64,000 nucleotides of DNA from Aequorivita aurantiaca (GTDB lineage Bacteria > Bacteroidota > Bacteroidia > Flavobacteriales > Flavobacteriaceae), in contig NZ_JAUGQQ010000003.1 in NCBI RefSeq assembly GCF_030410135.1, positions 248,001 to 312,000 on the forward strand, read 5' to 3'. Positions 18,754 through 40,429 of this stretch are shown here, in pieces (within the stretch, counting starts at the first letter, position 1; every line of letters starts with the position of its first letter). The notes under the pieces were generated by a model. It was not told the origin of the DNA, did no database searches, and saw nothing but the letters and a program-made list of their open reading frames with translations. Position numbers and translations under genes: made by a program.

Positions 18754-19236
18754 ATGAAAAATTTAGAAGAACTTTTTGAACATCAATTAAAGGATCTTTA
18801 CAGCGCTGAGGATCAACTTACTAAAGCCTTGCCCAAAATGGCCAAAAAGGCTAAGGACGCAAAATTAAAAAAGGCGATTGAAGACCACTTGGAAGAAACC
18901 GAAGAACAGAAAAAACGTTTGGAGGAAATTTGTGACGAACTTGACATAGATCCAAAAGGCGAAACGTGCAAGGCCATGAAAGGGCTTATAAAAGAAGCGG
19001 AGGATTTTATGGATGAAGTTGATGACGATGATGTTCTAAATGCAGGCATGATTGCCGAAGCACAGCGAGTGGAACATTATGAAATTTCCGGCTACGGCAC
19101 GGCGGTACGTTACGCAAAGGAGTTGGGGCACGATGCCATTGCTAAAAAACTCCAAAAAACGTTGGATGAAGAATACAACGCTGACAAAAAACTTAACGAT
19201 TTAGCCGAAAAAAGGTTGAATGCCAAAGCTAAATAA
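18754..19236 (+). CDS. Ferritin-like DUF892 (YciE/YciF-type) stress protein
   Basis: 160 residues, the typical length. Four-helix bundle: LEELFEHQLKDLYSAEDQLTKALPKM (helix 1), DHLEETEEQKKRLEEICDEL (helix 2), then MIAEAQRVEHYEISGYGTA (helix 3) and the EEYNADKKLNDLAEKRLN end (helix 4). Metal-binding Glu/His positions of the ferritin-like fold are present (E in LYSAE, E and H in VEHYE). The family is induced by osmotic or general stress in enterobacteria. It is monocistronic with its own terminator. A truncated relative is encoded at 34070. Confidence 0.93.
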   Translation: MKNLEELFEHQLKDLYSAEDQLTKALPKMAKKAKDAKLKKAIEDHLEETEEQKKRLEEICDELDIDPKGETCKAMKGLIKEAEDFMDEVDDDDVLNAGMIAEAQRVEHYEISGYGTAVRYAKELGHDAIAKKLQKTLDEEYNADKKLNDLAEKRLNAKAK

Positions 19237-21624: not shown

Positions 21625-22413
21625 ATGAAGTTAGCAGGAACCGAAATTACAAATCCGGAAAAAATTCTCTTCCCACAAAAACAAATCACCAAATTACAAT
21701 TGGTGGAATATTATCATAAAGTGGCCGAAAAAATGCTGCCTTATTTGAAAAACAGACCACTTACCCTACATCGTTTTCCGAATGGAATTGACGCCGATGG
21801 CTTCTATCAAAAAAATGCTTCGGACTATTTTCCCGATTTTATAAAAACGGTACAAGTTAAAACTGAAGATGGCACCAATACCCAAATAATCTGCAATGAC
21901 AAAAAAACTCTTGTGTATTTGGCCAACCAAGGAACGATCGCTTTTCATATTTGGTTATCACAAAAAGATATGCTTAATAAACCAAACAAAATAGTTTTTG
22001 ATTTGGATCCATCGGAAAATTCATTTGAGGACATAAAAAAAGCAGCTAAAATTGTGGGGGATTATATGCGAAATCAAGGTCAGGAACCGAAAATAATGAC
22101 CACTGGCCAGCACGGACTTCATGTGTGGGCGTCCATCAGAAGAACAAAGAACTTTGATGAAATAAAGGAAATTGCAAAAAACCACGCTCAAAACCTAGAA
22201 AACGAGCATCCCGAACTTTTTACCACCTCCATTAGAAAGAATAAACGAAATGGAAAAATATTTCTGGACTATTTGCGAAATGCCTATGCACAAACTTCCG
22301 TCTGCCCCTACTCCGTAAGGGCCAACGACACTGCTTCAGTCGCGATGCCGATTGATTGGAAAAGTTTGGATGATCTGAAAAGCGCCGATGCCTTTACAAT
22401 AATCAATATTTGA
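21625..22413 (+). CDS. LigD-type DNA polymerase/primase domain protein
   Basis: 262 residues made of only the LigD polymerase (archaeo-eukaryotic primase-like) domain. It opens ITNPEKILFPQKQITKLQLVEYY, holds the DLDPS metal-binding Asp pair, TTGQHGLHVW in place of the usual TSGxxGLHV, and FLDYLRNAYAQTSVCPYSVRA. It makes or fills short DNA/RNA ends in non-homologous end joining. The C-terminus stops at FTIINI, some 20-30 residues short of the family. No Ku gene or LigD ligase domain is in the window; these may be elsewhere or absent. Confidence 0.9.
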   Translation: MKLAGTEITNPEKILFPQKQITKLQLVEYYHKVAEKMLPYLKNRPLTLHRFPNGIDADGFYQKNASDYFPDFIKTVQVKTEDGTNTQIICNDKKTLVYLANQGTIAFHIWLSQKDMLNKPNKIVFDLDPSENSFEDIKKAAKIVGDYMRNQGQEPKIMTTGQHGLHVWASIRRTKNFDEIKEIAKNHAQNLENEHPELFTTSIRKNKRNGKIFLDYLRNAYAQTSVCPYSVRANDTASVAMPIDWKSLDDLKSADAFTIINI

Positions 22414-34069: not shown

Positions 34070-34357
34070 ATGAATATTTTCAACTTTATGGGAAAAGACT
34101 TTGAAAGTTACTTTTTGGACAACTTCTTTATAATAACTTTTGAGGAAATGCCAAATGAGAATTCAAATTTTATGAATCAGCCTCCTGAGAAAAGCATGTA
34201 TCGATTATTGCTGGCAGTAGTGAAAATGGCGGAAAAAGCCGGAAATAAGAAAATAAAAACATTTGTCGAAAATCATTTAAAAGAAACCCGACATCACCAA
34301 AATATTCTTCATAAAATTTTGGAACCCAGGCAAATTTATCCCTTTAAAAAAAATTAG
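34070..34357 (+). CDS. Truncated DUF892-like ferritin-fold protein
   Basis: 95 residues. Helix segment VVKMAEKAGNKKIKTFVENH then LKETRHHQNILHKILE aligns with helices 1-2 of the full DUF892 protein at 18754 (KMAKKAKDAKLKKAIEDHLEETEEQKKRL). The second half of the four-helix bundle, with the other metal ligands, is missing, and the first 35 residues are unrelated. Either a degraded paralogue or a short derivative that could pair with the full-length protein. The helix signal is clear; the functional state is unknown. Confidence 0.6.
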   Translation: MNIFNFMGKDFESYFLDNFFIITFEEMPNENSNFMNQPPEKSMYRLLLAVVKMAEKAGNKKIKTFVENHLKETRHHQNILHKILEPRQIYPFKKN

Positions 34358-34627: not shown

Positions 34628-34864
34628 TCAATAGTTGCTGCCCATTTCCCAGTCTCTTATCTCGCTTAATACGTCTTCACGTCTTCGGTTGGTTCTCTTT
34701 GCAATACGATCTGTCATGGAGTCAAATTCTCCTTCGCGATAATCCACATCCTGTTCTGTTATAGATGGATACATTTTTCTGTAGGATGGAGCAATATCAT
34801 TCCATTTGGTTTCCAAATCATTTTCAGCGTTTCTGTTTAGGTTCTGTAAATTATCGTTTTCCAT
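34628..34864 (-). CDS. CsbD-like small hydrophilic protein
   Basis: 78 residues, no hydrophobic segment. The core KWNDIAPSYRKMYPSITEQDVDY then EGEFDSMTDRIAKR and REDVLSEIRDW follows the pattern of CsbD-like stress proteins (W..I...K..W..LT..D, then G..D.L...I). Family members are induced by general stress or phosphate starvation. Divergent from the SRAP-like gene (151 bp apart), so they could share a regulatory region. The call is by pattern; the C-terminal CsbD half is weak. Confidence 0.6.
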   Translation of the reverse strand: MENDNLQNLNRNAENDLETKWNDIAPSYRKMYPSITEQDVDYREGEFDSMTDRIAKRTNRRREDVLSEIRDWEMGSNY

Positions 34865-35015: not shown

Positions 35016-35738
35016 TTGCATTCATTTAATATTAAAAAATCAGACTTTCGTCCGGTGATCACGCATCTATCAAATACCGCTACTCAATCAGAAATAGAAA
35101 CTTATTTAGGTATTCCATTTTTATTTCAAAATATTTATAAGCCGCAAATAATAATTAATGGCCGTGAGGAAACCTCTGCCATTTTAGTTACTTCCGGTTT
35201 TCCTGATGCCGTTCAATTCGGAATTTGGGGTATTTTACCAAAAAATTATTCCCAAGCCTGGCAGCATTTTCAAAATTATGAAATTTCACTCTCCACGGAC
35301 CTTGAAACTATACAGCCTGAACATTGGCTCTACGGAGCTCTAAAAGAACGGCGATGCTATATTATAGTTACTGGTTATTTCAATTATTTTTTAAAAAACA
35401 AAAATTTGCAACCCTGGTTTTCTTCTAAGGATTCGCAAAAGGCATTTTGTTTGGCAGGAGTTTATAATAAAACGGATGACGGTTTCATTACGTTTACCCT
35501 TCTTACCAAAAAATCAACCCATTTTCAAATTAAAACTAGTTTTACTCCCATCCTACCGATAATTCTTGCTAAAAAGGAGCGAGAATTATGGATTGGAAAT
35601 CACATAGAACCAGATGCCCTTAGTATTTTTCTCGAAAATATCTCATCCCCAAATTTAAAACAGCATGCTGTAAATCCAGCCATAATGGGCAAAGGGAAAA
35701 AAACTTTGCAAATGCTGGAACCGTATACAAAGAAATAG
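35016..35738 (+). CDS. SRAP (YedK/HMCES) homologue lacking catalytic residues
   Basis: 240 residues, normal for SRAP proteins. Fold landmarks align well: EIETYLGIPFLFQNIYKP and IIINGREETSAILVT at the N-terminus, FGIWGILPKNY (canonical WGLIP.W), ERRCYIIVTGYFNYF (RCLIPxDGFYEW), KAFCLAGVYN (FAFAGLWE) and TFTLLTKKSTHFQIKTSFTPILPIIL. But the residues that form and resolve the AP-site thiazolidine are gone: the frame starts TTG-CAT, so Cys2 is His; the Asn of NARxET is absent (STDLETI); the Glu of YEW is Asn; the His of HxRMP is Thr. No ATG is available for the first 230 codons. A pseudoenzyme is inferred. Confidence 0.75.
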   Translation: MHSFNIKKSDFRPVITHLSNTATQSEIETYLGIPFLFQNIYKPQIIINGREETSAILVTSGFPDAVQFGIWGILPKNYSQAWQHFQNYEISLSTDLETIQPEHWLYGALKERRCYIIVTGYFNYFLKNKNLQPWFSSKDSQKAFCLAGVYNKTDDGFITFTLLTKKSTHFQIKTSFTPILPIILAKKERELWIGNHIEPDALSIFLENISSPNLKQHAVNPAIMGKGKKTLQMLEPYTKK

Positions 35739-35742
35739 CGTG

Positions 35743-36753
35743 CTACTTTAAATTTTTACGGTATTCTGTAGGCAATATCCCATAGCGTTCCGAAAAAATT
35801 CTGGAGAAATAGCTCCTGTTTTTATATCCTATACTATAAACCACTTCTGAAACTGAAAGCTCTGTGTTTTTCAACAGATCCCGGGCTTTGAGCAGCTTTA
35901 ATTCTTTAATATATTCACTTACGCTTTGGGAAAAAAGCAATTTAAACCCCAATTGAAGTTTTGAGGGCACAAGGTCAACTTTTCTGGCAATCGCGTTAAC
36001 TGATATACTTTCGCTTAAAGTAGCTTGAATAAAGTTTGTGGCATCGTGGATTTTCTCAATATCCTTTTGCGATATTGATTCGGGCAGCCAGATATTATTT
36101 ATGAAATTCTCGTGCTCCAACAATTGTAGGCCCAAAATAATGTTCATATGGCCCTCAATTATTAAGCTTCTAACAATGCCGTCATGCGGTATGGCCTCCA
36201 ATTGTTGGATTTGATCTGCTATTTTTAAATTGAAGTTGCCGAAATGGCTATAAATGGAAACGGGCTTTTTAGAGTTAAAGATGTCCTGCAAATCTGCCTG
36301 TAAATATTCAATATTATTGTTCTTTTTCTTGATATATTCTTCTGGATCAATACGTATTATATTGAGATGAACACTTTCCTTCGCAGGAAAAATAAAATCA
36401 TTGTTAGAATTTTTGTGGTAATTGACAATTACGTTCTGATAGCTTTTAAGAGTATGAACTGTTTCTGAAGGCATAATGAAATCGACAGTTCCGCGGGTGA
36501 GGAAAATGAAATCTAGGGGCACTACATCTTCAAATGCAAAAGTTAATTTCAGATCTTCACGAAACGTCAGGTGAAAACGCATTAAATTCACGCCATAAGT
36601 AAATACCATATTACGTACTGTACCTGTTCCAAAACGGTTATTTATGGCAATGGATGTTTCTCCGTATTCATTTTGAACATCTACATCGAAAAATTCGGCT
36701 AGATGGTCAATCAACTCTTTACCGATCCCGTCCTCATAAACGATATTCGTCAT
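35743..36753 (-). CDS. AraC-family regulator, cluster member A
   Basis: 336 residues from ATG 36753 (an upstream ATG at 36798 would add 15 residues and no homology). The N-terminal about 200 residues share patches with the next regulator: VRNMVFTYGVNLMRFHL with GYIRGTIFNGGIGLIQY, and FIFLTRG with FLYCLRG. The C-terminus is an AraC double helix-turn-helix (ARKVDLVPSKLQLGFKLLF, EVVYSIGYKNRSYFSRIF). It is convergent with the SRAP-like gene (5 bp) and divergent from member B. No inducer domain of known family. Confidence 0.88.
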   Translation of the reverse strand: MTNIVYEDGIGKELIDHLAEFFDVDVQNEYGETSIAINNRFGTGTVRNMVFTYGVNLMRFHLTFREDLKLTFAFEDVVPLDFIFLTRGTVDFIMPSETVHTLKSYQNVIVNYHKNSNNDFIFPAKESVHLNIIRIDPEEYIKKKNNNIEYLQADLQDIFNSKKPVSIYSHFGNFNLKIADQIQQLEAIPHDGIVRSLIIEGHMNIILGLQLLEHENFINNIWLPESISQKDIEKIHDATNFIQATLSESISVNAIARKVDLVPSKLQLGFKLLFSQSVSEYIKELKLLKARDLLKNTELSVSEVVYSIGYKNRSYFSRIFSERYGILPTEYRKNLK

Positions 36754-37013
36754 TGGTGTTTCTTTCTTTAGATTACAAAGAAATTGGAATATTAACAATT
36801 GATTTAACGTTATTGAACTTTAGATTAACGAAAATTTGGAACAACCTTCACCGAGTGCTAAAGCCTTTATTTTGTTAAGATTAGAGTTACTTTTTTCCTA
36901 AAGAATTTCACTAAAAAAGGGCTTTGGACTAATTTAAATTACCAACATTGAAAGAAAAAAAAAACTTCCATCATAATGGAATAATATATTGTATCTTTTC
37001 GAAAATATTATTC

Positions 37014-38039
37014 GTGAAAAGTTTTGCCATAAATTCACTGCCGTTGAATGAGGTGCTTCATGATTTAAGTGAATGTCTTGGCACGAAGTGTATTAAAAAT
37101 TGTAACGAATATTCAATTAAAATCCCCGCCGACTGGGGAAGTGGTTATATTCGAGGAACTATATTTAATGGAGGTATTGGACTTATTCAATATCAATGCA
37201 AATTTAAAAAAGAGCTTGAAATCCGTTTTGTAGTTAATAAAATACATCCCGTAAAATTCTTATACTGTCTGCGCGGAAAACTGGAACACCGCTTTGAAAA
37301 TAGCCGGACCGTCAATTCCCTAACAAAATACCAGAATGCCATTGTGGCCAGCAAAGGAAAAAATGGGCATGTCTTGCGTTTTGCTGCAAATATTACCACA
37401 GATCTTTCCAGCCTTGAGATTACTCGGAAAGAATTTAAGCGGGAAATGTTCTGCTATTTACATAAATCGAGTGAATCCATAAAACATTTATTCAAGGACG
37501 AAACGGCAAAAAACTCCTTTTATTACGAGGGTTTGTATTCACTTCAAGTTTCCAATTATTTTGAGGAAATGAGTGCTTTTGGCCATAAAAATTTAATAAA
37601 ACATTTGTTTATGCAAGCTAAGGCGCTTCAAATTCTTATTGGGCAACTAATTCAATATGAAGATGATCTTGCCGAAAAGGATGAAAGAAGGATCTTGCGA
37701 AATTCCGAGGTACGCTCCATTGATGAAGCGGTCAAAATTATAGAACTTGAATTGGAAAATCTCGAACCGGTACTTTCCCTGGCACATCGGGTTGGACTTA
37801 ACCAAAACAAATTGCAGGACGGATTCCATATTCTATATTCGCTTTCGGTGAATGCCTACATCCAAAAAGAACGCCTGAAATTGGCCGTCTCTTTACTAAA
37901 AAACACGAATATAACTATGGTTGAAATAATGGAGCGTTTGGGGCTGAGCAGCCAAAGCTATTTTTCCAAAATTTTCCGAGATCGTTATGACATTACTCCC
38001 TCCCACTATAGGAAATTACACCGGGCAAAACCTGCCTAA
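37014..38039 (+). CDS. AraC-family regulator, cluster member B
   Basis: GTG at 37014 is preferred (about 341 residues) because alignment with member A begins here; a TTG at 36948 would add 22 residues. No ATG is available. It shares the same unusual N-terminal domain (GYIRGTIFNGGIGLIQYQ, PVKFLYCLRGKLEHRF) and ends with an AraC DNA-binding domain (AHRVGLNQNKLQDGFHIL; EIMERLGLSSQSYFSKIF). Divergent from member A across a 260-bp region. Control by autoregulation or cross-regulation between A and B is an inference. Confidence 0.87.
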   Translation: MKSFAINSLPLNEVLHDLSECLGTKCIKNCNEYSIKIPADWGSGYIRGTIFNGGIGLIQYQCKFKKELEIRFVVNKIHPVKFLYCLRGKLEHRFENSRTVNSLTKYQNAIVASKGKNGHVLRFAANITTDLSSLEITRKEFKREMFCYLHKSSESIKHLFKDETAKNSFYYEGLYSLQVSNYFEEMSAFGHKNLIKHLFMQAKALQILIGQLIQYEDDLAEKDERRILRNSEVRSIDEAVKIIELELENLEPVLSLAHRVGLNQNKLQDGFHILYSLSVNAYIQKERLKLAVSLLKNTNITMVEIMERLGLSSQSYFSKIFRDRYDITPSHYRKLHRAKPA

Positions 38040-38091: not shown

Positions 38092-39063
38092 TTAAGCTGT
38101 AACAGCTAACGAAATTTGTTGACGTTGATAATCCGTAGGGGTGCATTTATATTTTTTCTTAAAAATGCGCGAAAAATAGCTTCGGCTGCACAAACCCACT
38201 GTATAGACTATTTCAGAAATGTTTAGGTCTGAATTAACCAACAGTTCTTCTGCTTTCAGCAACCGCACCTCACGGATAAAGTTAGCAATGGTATGGCCGT
38301 GCATTTCCTTAAAACCTTCCTGCAATTTTGGGATACTAACGCCGCTTTTCCTTGAAAGCGACTTAATGGAATAATTCTGTTCAGGATGCAACCTTATTTC
38401 TTCGGTAATTCTTTGAAGTTCCACAATCTCCCATTCACGCAGGCACGAGCGGAATTTTTCCCTTCCACTTTTTGCTTCAATATATTGGTTCAGCAACATC
38501 CCAATAATTATATTAACGTAACCTAAGGAGATAAGATTTTCAGGAAAGGTTTTTTTGCATTCTAAAAGTTTATGCAAATAATCTGAGATTTTCAAATTCG
38601 GAAGACCTTTATACATAATATCCTTCTCAAAATAGATCTTACTATTTTCACCAACAAAACCTTTTACGTGACTTTCAAAATTTGAGGTGTCCATTATAAA
38701 GCAGCAAAATTTATAATTCCCATTTTTTTGTAAAATAATTTCCAGTGAAGCTTTCTTTTTGAAATATAAAAAGTTATGTAGCTCTCCCAGCGGGAACCTC
38801 TCGGTTTCGCTTTCGCTGAATTGCAATTTATCATTAAGGTTAAATATGAATAGGTATTTATTCGAAATTTCCACCGGAAAACGAAAGTTGCGGGATGCTG
38901 TCTGTTTAAATTCACATTGCAGAAATTTTATACCCTTCCCGAGGGTGAATAATTTATAAGAGTGTTCGTTCAATTTTTTTTCCGCACGTGTGGCGGATAA
39001 TAAAAAATTGGGGGAGGCGAAGGCCTGCCGCGCCGAGGCGGAAAAAAGTTCATTCGTTTTCAT
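38092..39063 (-). CDS. AraC-family regulator, cluster member C
   Basis: 323 residues. The N-terminal part differs from A and B in detail but has a similar layout: FLFIFNLNDKLQFSES and the NFLYFKKKASLEIIL strands. The C-terminal AraC domain is clear (SRKSGVSIPKLQEGFKEMHG; EIVYTVGLCSRSYFSRIFKKK). It is convergent with member B and precedes a small two-helix membrane protein 9 bp from its start on the same strand (39072-39284 upstream), so that protein and C may share an operon. Confidence 0.88.
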   Translation of the reverse strand: MKTNELFSASARQAFASPNFLLSATRAEKKLNEHSYKLFTLGKGIKFLQCEFKQTASRNFRFPVEISNKYLFIFNLNDKLQFSESETERFPLGELHNFLYFKKKASLEIILQKNGNYKFCCFIMDTSNFESHVKGFVGENSKIYFEKDIMYKGLPNLKISDYLHKLLECKKTFPENLISLGYVNIIIGMLLNQYIEAKSGREKFRSCLREWEIVELQRITEEIRLHPEQNYSIKSLSRKSGVSIPKLQEGFKEMHGHTIANFIREVRLLKAEELLVNSDLNISEIVYTVGLCSRSYFSRIFKKKYKCTPTDYQRQQISLAVTA

Positions 39064-39410: not shown

Positions 39411-39857
39411 CTACATCCGAAGCACGAAATGTTGACGATCGGAGCCGGTAGAATAAACTCTCCAATTGATTACAATTAATTGTCTTAGCATGCTATCAAA
39501 TTCCGATGCGGTTTTGGGGTATTTAAAAAAGATATTCGCCCCCTCAATGAAAATTTTCTTTATCACTTCTTCATCCTCAACACGACTGTAGGCAATGAGA
39601 ATTAAATTGTTGTATGCTGTTTTGGCTCGAACTGCTTTCAGACACTCCATGCCCACGTTTACGGGATCGTCCATATCCAACATTACAATATGGTATTCTG
39701 AGGAATAGTTAATGGATAGATAATCCATTAGCTTCTCACAATCCTGAAGTCGGTGAAATTTAGTTTTTATGGGAATTCCGGACAAACCTTTTGCTATGGC
39801 CAAATGATGTTTTTGGTCCCCCGTTACCAACGTAAAATGTAATCCTGTTCGTTCCAT
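39411..39857 (-). CDS. Stand-alone receiver-domain (CheY-like) protein
   Basis: 148 residues, a single response-regulator receiver domain without an output domain. The phosphoacceptor region is HIVMLDMDDPVNVGMECLK, with the Asp in LDMDD; the conserved Thr/Ser region is ILIAYSRVEDEEV and the Lys is in FFKYPKT. The first acidic pair is weaker (VTGDQKHH). No histidine kinase is near. It is 5 bp downstream of the short AraC gene (39863-40429), forming a two-gene operon. Confidence 0.75.
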   Translation of the reverse strand: MERTGLHFTLVTGDQKHHLAIAKGLSGIPIKTKFHRLQDCEKLMDYLSINYSSEYHIVMLDMDDPVNVGMECLKAVRAKTAYNNLILIAYSRVEDEEVIKKIFIEGANIFFKYPKTASEFDSMLRQLIVINWRVYSTGSDRQHFVLRM

Positions 39858-39862
39858 TCATT

Positions 39863-40429
39863 CTAACCCATGATTTCCACTTCAACAATTTTTCTTTGGA
39901 AGCGTGCGGAAATTATTTTTTGAAATTCTTGAAAGGTAAGTCCTGTGGTTTGCTTAAACTGTCGTGACAAATGGGCAACACTGCAATAATTCAAGCGGAA
40001 GGCTATTTCGGTCAAGGTAAGATTTTCATCGATGGCCAATTTTTTTACCATTTCAATTTTCTGGAAAATAACGAAGCTTTCTATAGAACAATAAGTAGCT
40101 TTTTGAAAAAGATGAGAAAGATGCCTATAGGAATACTCCAAATGCCTACAAAGATAATCGCCGGTTTTTTCCGTGCTCTGCTCATGGATCATTTGAATGA
40201 TCAACTTTTTTATCTCCATTACCACTTGTGCAGAATGGTCGCGGGTAATCTCAATATTGAAATTTGATAGATACTTGGATACTACATTCATTTGTTCATT
40301 GTTCAATGGGGAATCCAATTGAATTTCAAAGGCACTAATTTTGTGGAAGGGAATACCCACGGAGTTAATTAAATCTTTGATAAATAGCTCCATCGCAACG
40401 TGTGGATCATATTTTAAATGTAATTTCAT
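39863..40429 (-). CDS. Short AraC-family regulator
   Basis: 188 residues: an N-terminal alpha-beta segment of about 80 residues and a C-terminal AraC helix-turn-helix pair (DYLCRHLEYSYRHLSHLFQK; EIAFRLNYCSVAHLSRQFKQTTG). This short type is widespread in Bacteroidota near stress genes. It is followed 5 bp later by the receiver protein, so the two probably act together. DNA target unknown. Confidence 0.82.
   Translation of the reverse strand: MKLHLKYDPHVAMELFIKDLINSVGIPFHKISAFEIQLDSPLNNEQMNVVSKYLSNFNIEITRDHSAQVVMEIKKLIIQMIHEQSTEKTGDYLCRHLEYSYRHLSHLFQKATYCSIESFVIFQKIEMVKKLAIDENLTLTEIAFRLNYCSVAHLSRQFKQTTGLTFQEFQKIISARFQRKIVEVEIMG

Follow-up and report, generated by a model that had tools for sequence, protein, structure and literature searches.

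Can a protein of the SRAP family be kept as an intact, conserved gene once the residues of its chemistry are gone? In YedK the catalytic set of the family consists of Cys2, Asn75, Glu105 and His160. The question is raised by a single gene in a 64,000-nucleotide stretch of the Aequorivita aurantiaca genome (contig NZ_JAUGQQ010000003.1, positions 248,001 to 312,000; hereafter the window, to whose numbering all coordinates refer), which a first-pass annotation had read as an SRAP pseudoenzyme with an intact frame.

The frame is indeed open at 35016-35738 on the plus strand. At 35% G+C about 7% of random codons would by simple arithmetic be stops, so that roughly 247 open codons are very unlikely to occur by chance. 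The proposed family membership also stands: the Pfam SRAP profile PF02586 matches residues 63-223 of the TTG-start protein with 58.3 bits (cut-off 27.1, E 1e-15). An NCBIfam search of the same gene product gave zero matches up to E 0.01. As judged from the sequence match, SRAP homology is significant independently of frame length. The TTG start at 35016 that had been assumed, on the other hand, is probably wrong. Relatives begin with MYNKLS, MYYKLSNTA or MFYKLSNTA and align with MITHLSNTA in the window protein, so that translation probably starts at GTG 35055 and yields 227 amino acids. The 13 codons from the TTG have no counterpart among the aligned relatives; an upstream stop nearly fixes the start in 16 listed relatives of the same clade (0 to 3 open residues before it), and in the 20 clade members whose frames extend least far upstream, 0-5 residues are open there. 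Position 2 holds no Cys from either start. The frame is divided as follows.

35055 to 35738, plus strand: pseudo-SRAP gene with probable GTG start, 227 amino acids, stop at 35736-35738; identified by the Pfam match, the starts of relatives and a clade branch with support 100/100.
35016 to 35054, plus strand: 13-codon upstream extension from the TTG, probably untranslated, without counterpart in relatives.

The window protein has I, S, N and T in place of Cys2, Asn75, Glu105 and His160, and D and I in place of Arg77 and Arg162, the YedK numbers having been assigned to alignment columns by our own mapping. All four catalytic residues are thus changed, just as had been claimed. Is this the accident of one genome? 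A two-row profile built from the window protein and one relative was searched against 397 genomes of Flavobacteriaceae, of which 48 match at E <= 1.7e-43, with the next match at 2e-32. Zobellia and Aquimarina, both Flavobacteriaceae, are among the members. For the tree and the residue tally we compared 55 intact clade members with 24 other SRAPs, leaving out duplicate loci (L055, L057, L002, L018, L013, L019, L005, L021) and broken copies (L077, L115); G611, a further genome with a clade-level match, from the order sample, also lies outside the 55. In the maximum-likelihood tree a branch with support 100/100 separates the clade members from the other SRAPs. An isolated pseudogene or a sequencing error is ruled out by these 55 intact relatives, which share the loss of Glu and in 52 cases that of Cys2.

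The clade was found here in Flavobacteriaceae only. In samples of the order (296 genomes) and the phylum (395 genomes), searched at E <= 1e-33, the listed matches all belong to this family, in listings that do not give the number of sampled genomes outside it. The threshold does not separate the clade cleanly, because one listed match, in G206 (8.8e-42), is an SRAP outside the clade (L110). A scan of genome contigs with the window protein alone found no relatives and with the two rows found seven loci, and scans of viral contigs with one canonical protein and with A3 found none. Within the genus of the window, one of 28 genomes (3 of which are below 90% complete or above 5% contaminated) has a clade-level match, at 302 bits, and the next genome reaches 109.8 bits. 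No clade-level match, and hence no normal Met-Cys copy, was seen in the 27 other genomes, in which the best matches to the neighbouring AraC protein are 26-32% identical. With a significant SRAP profile match and no such normal copy in the genus, the results that would have spoken against a pseudoenzyme did not appear. In genome G025 a relative (53%) of the window's 559-amino-acid gene is present, together with two neighbouring window genes as judged by eye; the pseudo-SRAP is absent from the stretch read, and one of two SRAP matches, with canonical motifs, lies about 11 kb away.

The residue tally shows how complete the loss is. Glu is kept in none of the 55 clade members as compared to 23 of the 24 other SRAPs, and Cys2 in 3/55 as compared to 21/24, where the remaining three rows (L012, L014, L020) have a gap at position 2, their start having been set inside the frame. 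The full quartet occurs in no clade member and in 20 of the 24 others, to which come the three rows with N, E and H that have no residue 2. Glu, His and Asn are kept together in 23/24 other SRAPs, the exception (L117b) being degenerate itself, while Asn survives in 35/55 clade members and His in 15/55. In 51 of the 55, position 2 is occupied by Y, F, I, K, N or L. Four basic columns, including the Arg that follows NA and the one that precedes MP, fall in frequency from 0.92-0.96 in other SRAPs to 0.09-0.16 in the clade, and the Trp column following WGxxP, occupied by W in 20/24 other SRAPs, has W in 0/55. The difference in core charge is non-significant (p 0.29); the median pI is 5.4 in the clade and 6.1 in other SRAPs, the window protein being basic (pI 8.9).

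W58, G59, P62, R100, G107 and P168 are present in 55/55 members, and C101, which is common to canonical SRAPs, in 54/55. Seven further residues, E39, I57, W69, Q73, D142, G143 and F144, are invariant (55/55), a combination that other SRAPs lack; the E39 column is acidic in 0/24 of these. The former Asp column is Thr in 48/55 and the former Glu column Thr in 43/55 (VTGFFT). The conserved clade positions listed contain no His. In the numbering from the GTG start, the invariant positions map to the window as follows.

35169 to 35231, plus strand: span from E39 to G59, in which E39, I57, W58 and G59 are clade-invariant.
35259 to 35273, plus strand: codons W69 to Q73, of which W69 and Q73 are clade-invariant; a helix is predicted at 69-75.
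35478 to 35486, plus strand: codons of D142-G143-F144, clade-invariant, between two predicted strands.

The tree also hints at the order of events. The state of Cys2 requires a single change, and three members that keep it (L087, L091, L092) are sister to the other 52 (support 99/93 for their own branch and 87/86 for that of the 52). All three lack Glu, with the quartets CNTH, CNTH and CNTN; the simplest reading is that Glu was lost before Cys2, because those members that still carry the Cys are already without it. The window gene groups at 99/90 with L073, L075, L076 and L107; its own branch has a length of 1.26, which makes its placement less sure. Catalytic loss seems to have recurred, since a degenerate SRAP in the window's genus (L117, or L013; G016:C1:2564425-2565000, minus strand) has a long branch and does not group with the clade. 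It lies beside a canonical SRAP on the opposite strand, keeps Cys2 and has Leu, Ala and Ile in the Glu, Asn and His columns. Separately, a viral contig holds an SRAP-like stretch (L183:801-1391) in which Gln replaces the catalytic Glu and the NAR motif is absent from the alignment.

Structure prediction, one of the checks suggested at the outset, agrees with the profile match. An AF2 model from a 39-row alignment has a pLDDT of 85.3 and a pTM of 0.85; as 31 of these rows are viral-contig SRAPs (drawn from 38 viral-contig loci) with mostly canonical motifs, the input itself favours the SRAP fold, and with eight clade rows alone the pLDDT is 38.3. Foldseek returned 20 PDB matches at E <= 0.001, all of them SRAP structures (2f20, YedK, HMCES entries, 1zn6, 2icu and 2bdv), with 2f20 as the best (TM 0.82-0.84, 18-19% identity). 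The 2013 paper on the family lists 1zn6, 2f20, 2bdv and 2icu as SRAP structures (PMC3765255). The predicted structure is accordingly that of an SRAP fold.

Is the gene under selection? The dN/dS comparison that had been called for was made on 26 clade pairs of more than 60% identity, a set outside which the window gene falls, as it has no near relative. In 17 pairs with finite dS the ratio is 0.08-0.20, and nine are saturated; the ratios are rough, since dS lies above 1 in 16 of those with a finite value, and the pair with a dS of 0.52 gives 0.20. There is purifying selection between close clade members. The window copy itself may be relaxed. Its conservation at near-invariant positions, 0.778, is lower than that of any other member (the next being 0.846), and its G+C of 35% comes with a GC3 of 0.29 as compared to 0.39-0.44 in seven large genes of the window. 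Nevertheless, of the 16 positions at which the other 54 members never vary it keeps 15, the exception being the start residue. Two clade copies elsewhere, L077 (in G344) and L115 (in G063), are broken by stops or frame changes, so that the pseudo-SRAP gene does decay in some genomes.

The surroundings of the gene provide a further line of evidence. In the window, the following genes lie next to it.

34628 to 34864, minus strand: small protein with a weakly supported CsbD-like label (NCBIfam 18.4 bits, cut-off 113; nothing above cut-off in Pfam).
35743 to 36798, minus strand: AraC-type regulator (Pfam HTH_18), convergent with the pseudo-SRAP gene, 4 bp between the ends.
36948 to 38039, plus strand: AraC-type regulator (Pfam HTH_18).
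38092 to 39063, minus strand: AraC-type regulator (NCBIfam AraC-family matches, all below cut-offs).
39411 to 39857, minus strand: protein that we take to be response-regulator-like; its cluster (X) is found at 12/55 clade loci.
39863 to 40429, minus strand: short AraC-type protein of 188 amino acids (NCBIfam AraC-family matches, all below cut-offs).

Of the neighbours first described, the AraC cluster holds up in Pfam and NCBIfam matches, while the CsbD-like gene, at 18.4 bits, is a weak assignment. Between 35743 and 40429 the cluster comprises three long genes and one short gene, and in the two AraC genes scanned with Pfam the N-terminal parts have no domain above cut-off. Elsewhere in the window, a 95-amino-acid protein at 34070-34357 has a weak partial DUF892 match (22.2 bits, cut-off 23.7) and is perhaps a remnant; a longer protein at 18754-19236 looks similar to it. 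A short protein at 21625-22413, which presumably resembles the polymerase part of LigD, has relatives at three clade loci (L073, L075, L107, all from the window gene's own branch) and at one of 28 control loci.

These controls are loci of other SRAPs, compared with the 55 clade loci over about 12.6 kb each; 22 come from genomes that also have a clade member and six from genomes without one, and the catalytic residues were checked for the SRAPs of eight, one of which (L117) has the second, degenerate SRAP. One cluster of AraC-type regulators occurs within about 6 kb at 49/55 clade loci as compared to 0/28 controls, six clade loci having no AraC of this cluster; at 20/55 the AraC gene is convergent with the pseudo-SRAP gene across a gap of at most 44 bp. 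With names supplied by Pfam, DUF2383 is found at 36/55 clade loci (1/28 controls), DUF1328 at 35/55, MscS at 29/55, YtxH at 16/55 and hemerythrin at 10/55, each with 0/28 controls, as are a presumably lipoprotein-like small gene (38/55) and a presumably topoisomerase-IB-like gene (18/55). Clusters K, O and V show no clear enrichment (5/55, 9/55 and 10/55, each against 1/28). The comparison is biased towards the clade, because the neighbour clusters were defined on clade loci, and loci of one genus are non-independent, so that the context p-values overstate its strength. An SOS or translesion-polymerase context is common, though not universal, among catalytic SRAPs; the one query used for it, a protein that we take to be Y-family-polymerase-like, was found at 8/28 controls and at 0/55 clade loci. 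The neighbours of the clade genes are thus of the AraC and stress type rather than translesion-polymerase-like.

What, then, is the protein for? That the clade is catalytically dead and conserved we hold with high confidence. The reading we favour, with moderate confidence, is that of an SRAP subfamily that has lost the residues for abasic-site cross-linking and is kept for another, probably non-catalytic job, likely in binding or as an adaptor; for the adaptor role as such the chances are about even. The earlier suggestion of another role is thereby upheld in its core, by 55 intact genes without the catalytic set and by purifying selection in close pairs, while the particular roles it had offered fare poorly. 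As a dominant-negative or dimer partner, the protein would act on a canonical SRAP. A canonical second SRAP, which had been named as something to look for, is present in the window genome at C22 (149.4 bits; MCY, NARGET, GFFE, HN..RMP), and a PF02586 search at E <= 0.001 gives more than one match in 30 of 47 clade genomes. In the other 17, however, the clade member is the sole match, so that a role depending on a canonical SRAP is unlikely in general; we reject it as a general role and regard the partner explanation altogether as very improbable.

DNA binding, the other role offered, could take the form of non-covalent binding of single-stranded or damaged DNA in a shielding or sensing role. 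In its favour, the model retains the fold, an Arg at column 126 is present in 55/55 members alongside the partly retained Asn75 and His160, core charge is not significantly below that of other SRAPs, and the pI of the window protein is basic. The claim nevertheless survives only in part, as the collapse of the four basic columns weakens binding in the canonical style, the Trp after WGxxP is gone throughout, the median pI is lower and the polymerase-like neighbour is missing; we consider this explanation unlikely. Somewhat less likely still is that the window copy alone is decaying while the clade remains functional, which is compatible with the binding or adaptor reading of the clade. Its low conservation, long branch and base composition, the lack of a clade-level match in 27 other genomes of the genus and the broken copies elsewhere would fit, but the frame is intact and nearly all clade-invariant positions are kept. 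A new enzymatic activity could use E39, Q73, D142 and the two Thr of VTGFFT, all invariant or nearly so; yet there is no His among the conserved positions listed, the one conserved Cys (C101) is shared with canonical SRAPs and D142 sits between two predicted strands, which leaves this explanation improbable.

Returning to a conserved binding or adaptor protein, how might it have come about? Glu and the basic residues would have been lost first, followed by a single loss of Cys2. Without Glu, and with a mostly bulky residue 2, the resulting proteins would be unable to form a thiazolidine and probably also a Schiff base; methionine aminopeptidase leaves the start Met in place before a bulky residue, so that this Met would cover the amine. 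A covalent cross-link to abasic-site DNA would then be absent from the clade, as far as its residues tell. E39, I57, W69, Q73 and D142-G143-F144 may form part of a putative partner or ligand site, and the neighbouring AraC regulators may control a stress programme that contains the pseudo-SRAP. Least certain is that the protein now acts in an AraC-linked stress island by binding or as an adaptor, as this rests on neighbours that possibly share a regulator or a niche only. To the whole scheme, a stepwise conversion of a cross-linking enzyme into a stress-response binding protein with an AraC regulator, the SRAP fold having gained a new ligand site and acting as sensor or adaptor, we give somewhat less than even credence.

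These observations bear on annotation. To name clade proteins as peptidases, or as protectors of abasic sites, from their family alone would probably be a mistake, and in 17 of the 47 genomes a clade member is the sole SRAP match. The early-branching trio that keeps Cys2 without Glu offers a natural series on the order of residue loss, and on an SRAP fold without its chemistry. In a search of titles and abstract openings, outside which most subscription papers lay, we found neither a dead or Cys-less SRAP clade nor the stress island of the clade loci. In the 2013 paper in which the family was named, the second-position Cys is called "absolutely conserved", and translesion and SOS operons are described as the contexts of the family (PMC3765255); 52 of the 55 clade members have no Cys2.

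How does the clade compare with known systems? With YedK and HMCES it shares the modelled fold, the PF02586 match and the WG..P, RC, G and P landmarks, and differs in having no Glu in any member, no Cys2 in nearly all, lost basic columns and no Y-family-polymerase-like neighbour. The nearest solved structure, BT_1218 of Bacteroides thetaiotaomicron (2f20), shows the canonical motifs NARADT, GYFEW and HRMP in the alignments, unlike the window protein. A likeness of another kind is found in ImuA, SulA and ImuB, described in that paper as inactive paralogues in the SOS system (PMC3765255). Like the clade, they are related to repair enzymes, have lost the activity and persist in a different role; unlike it, they are paralogues of RecA and Y-family polymerases and belong to an SOS context.
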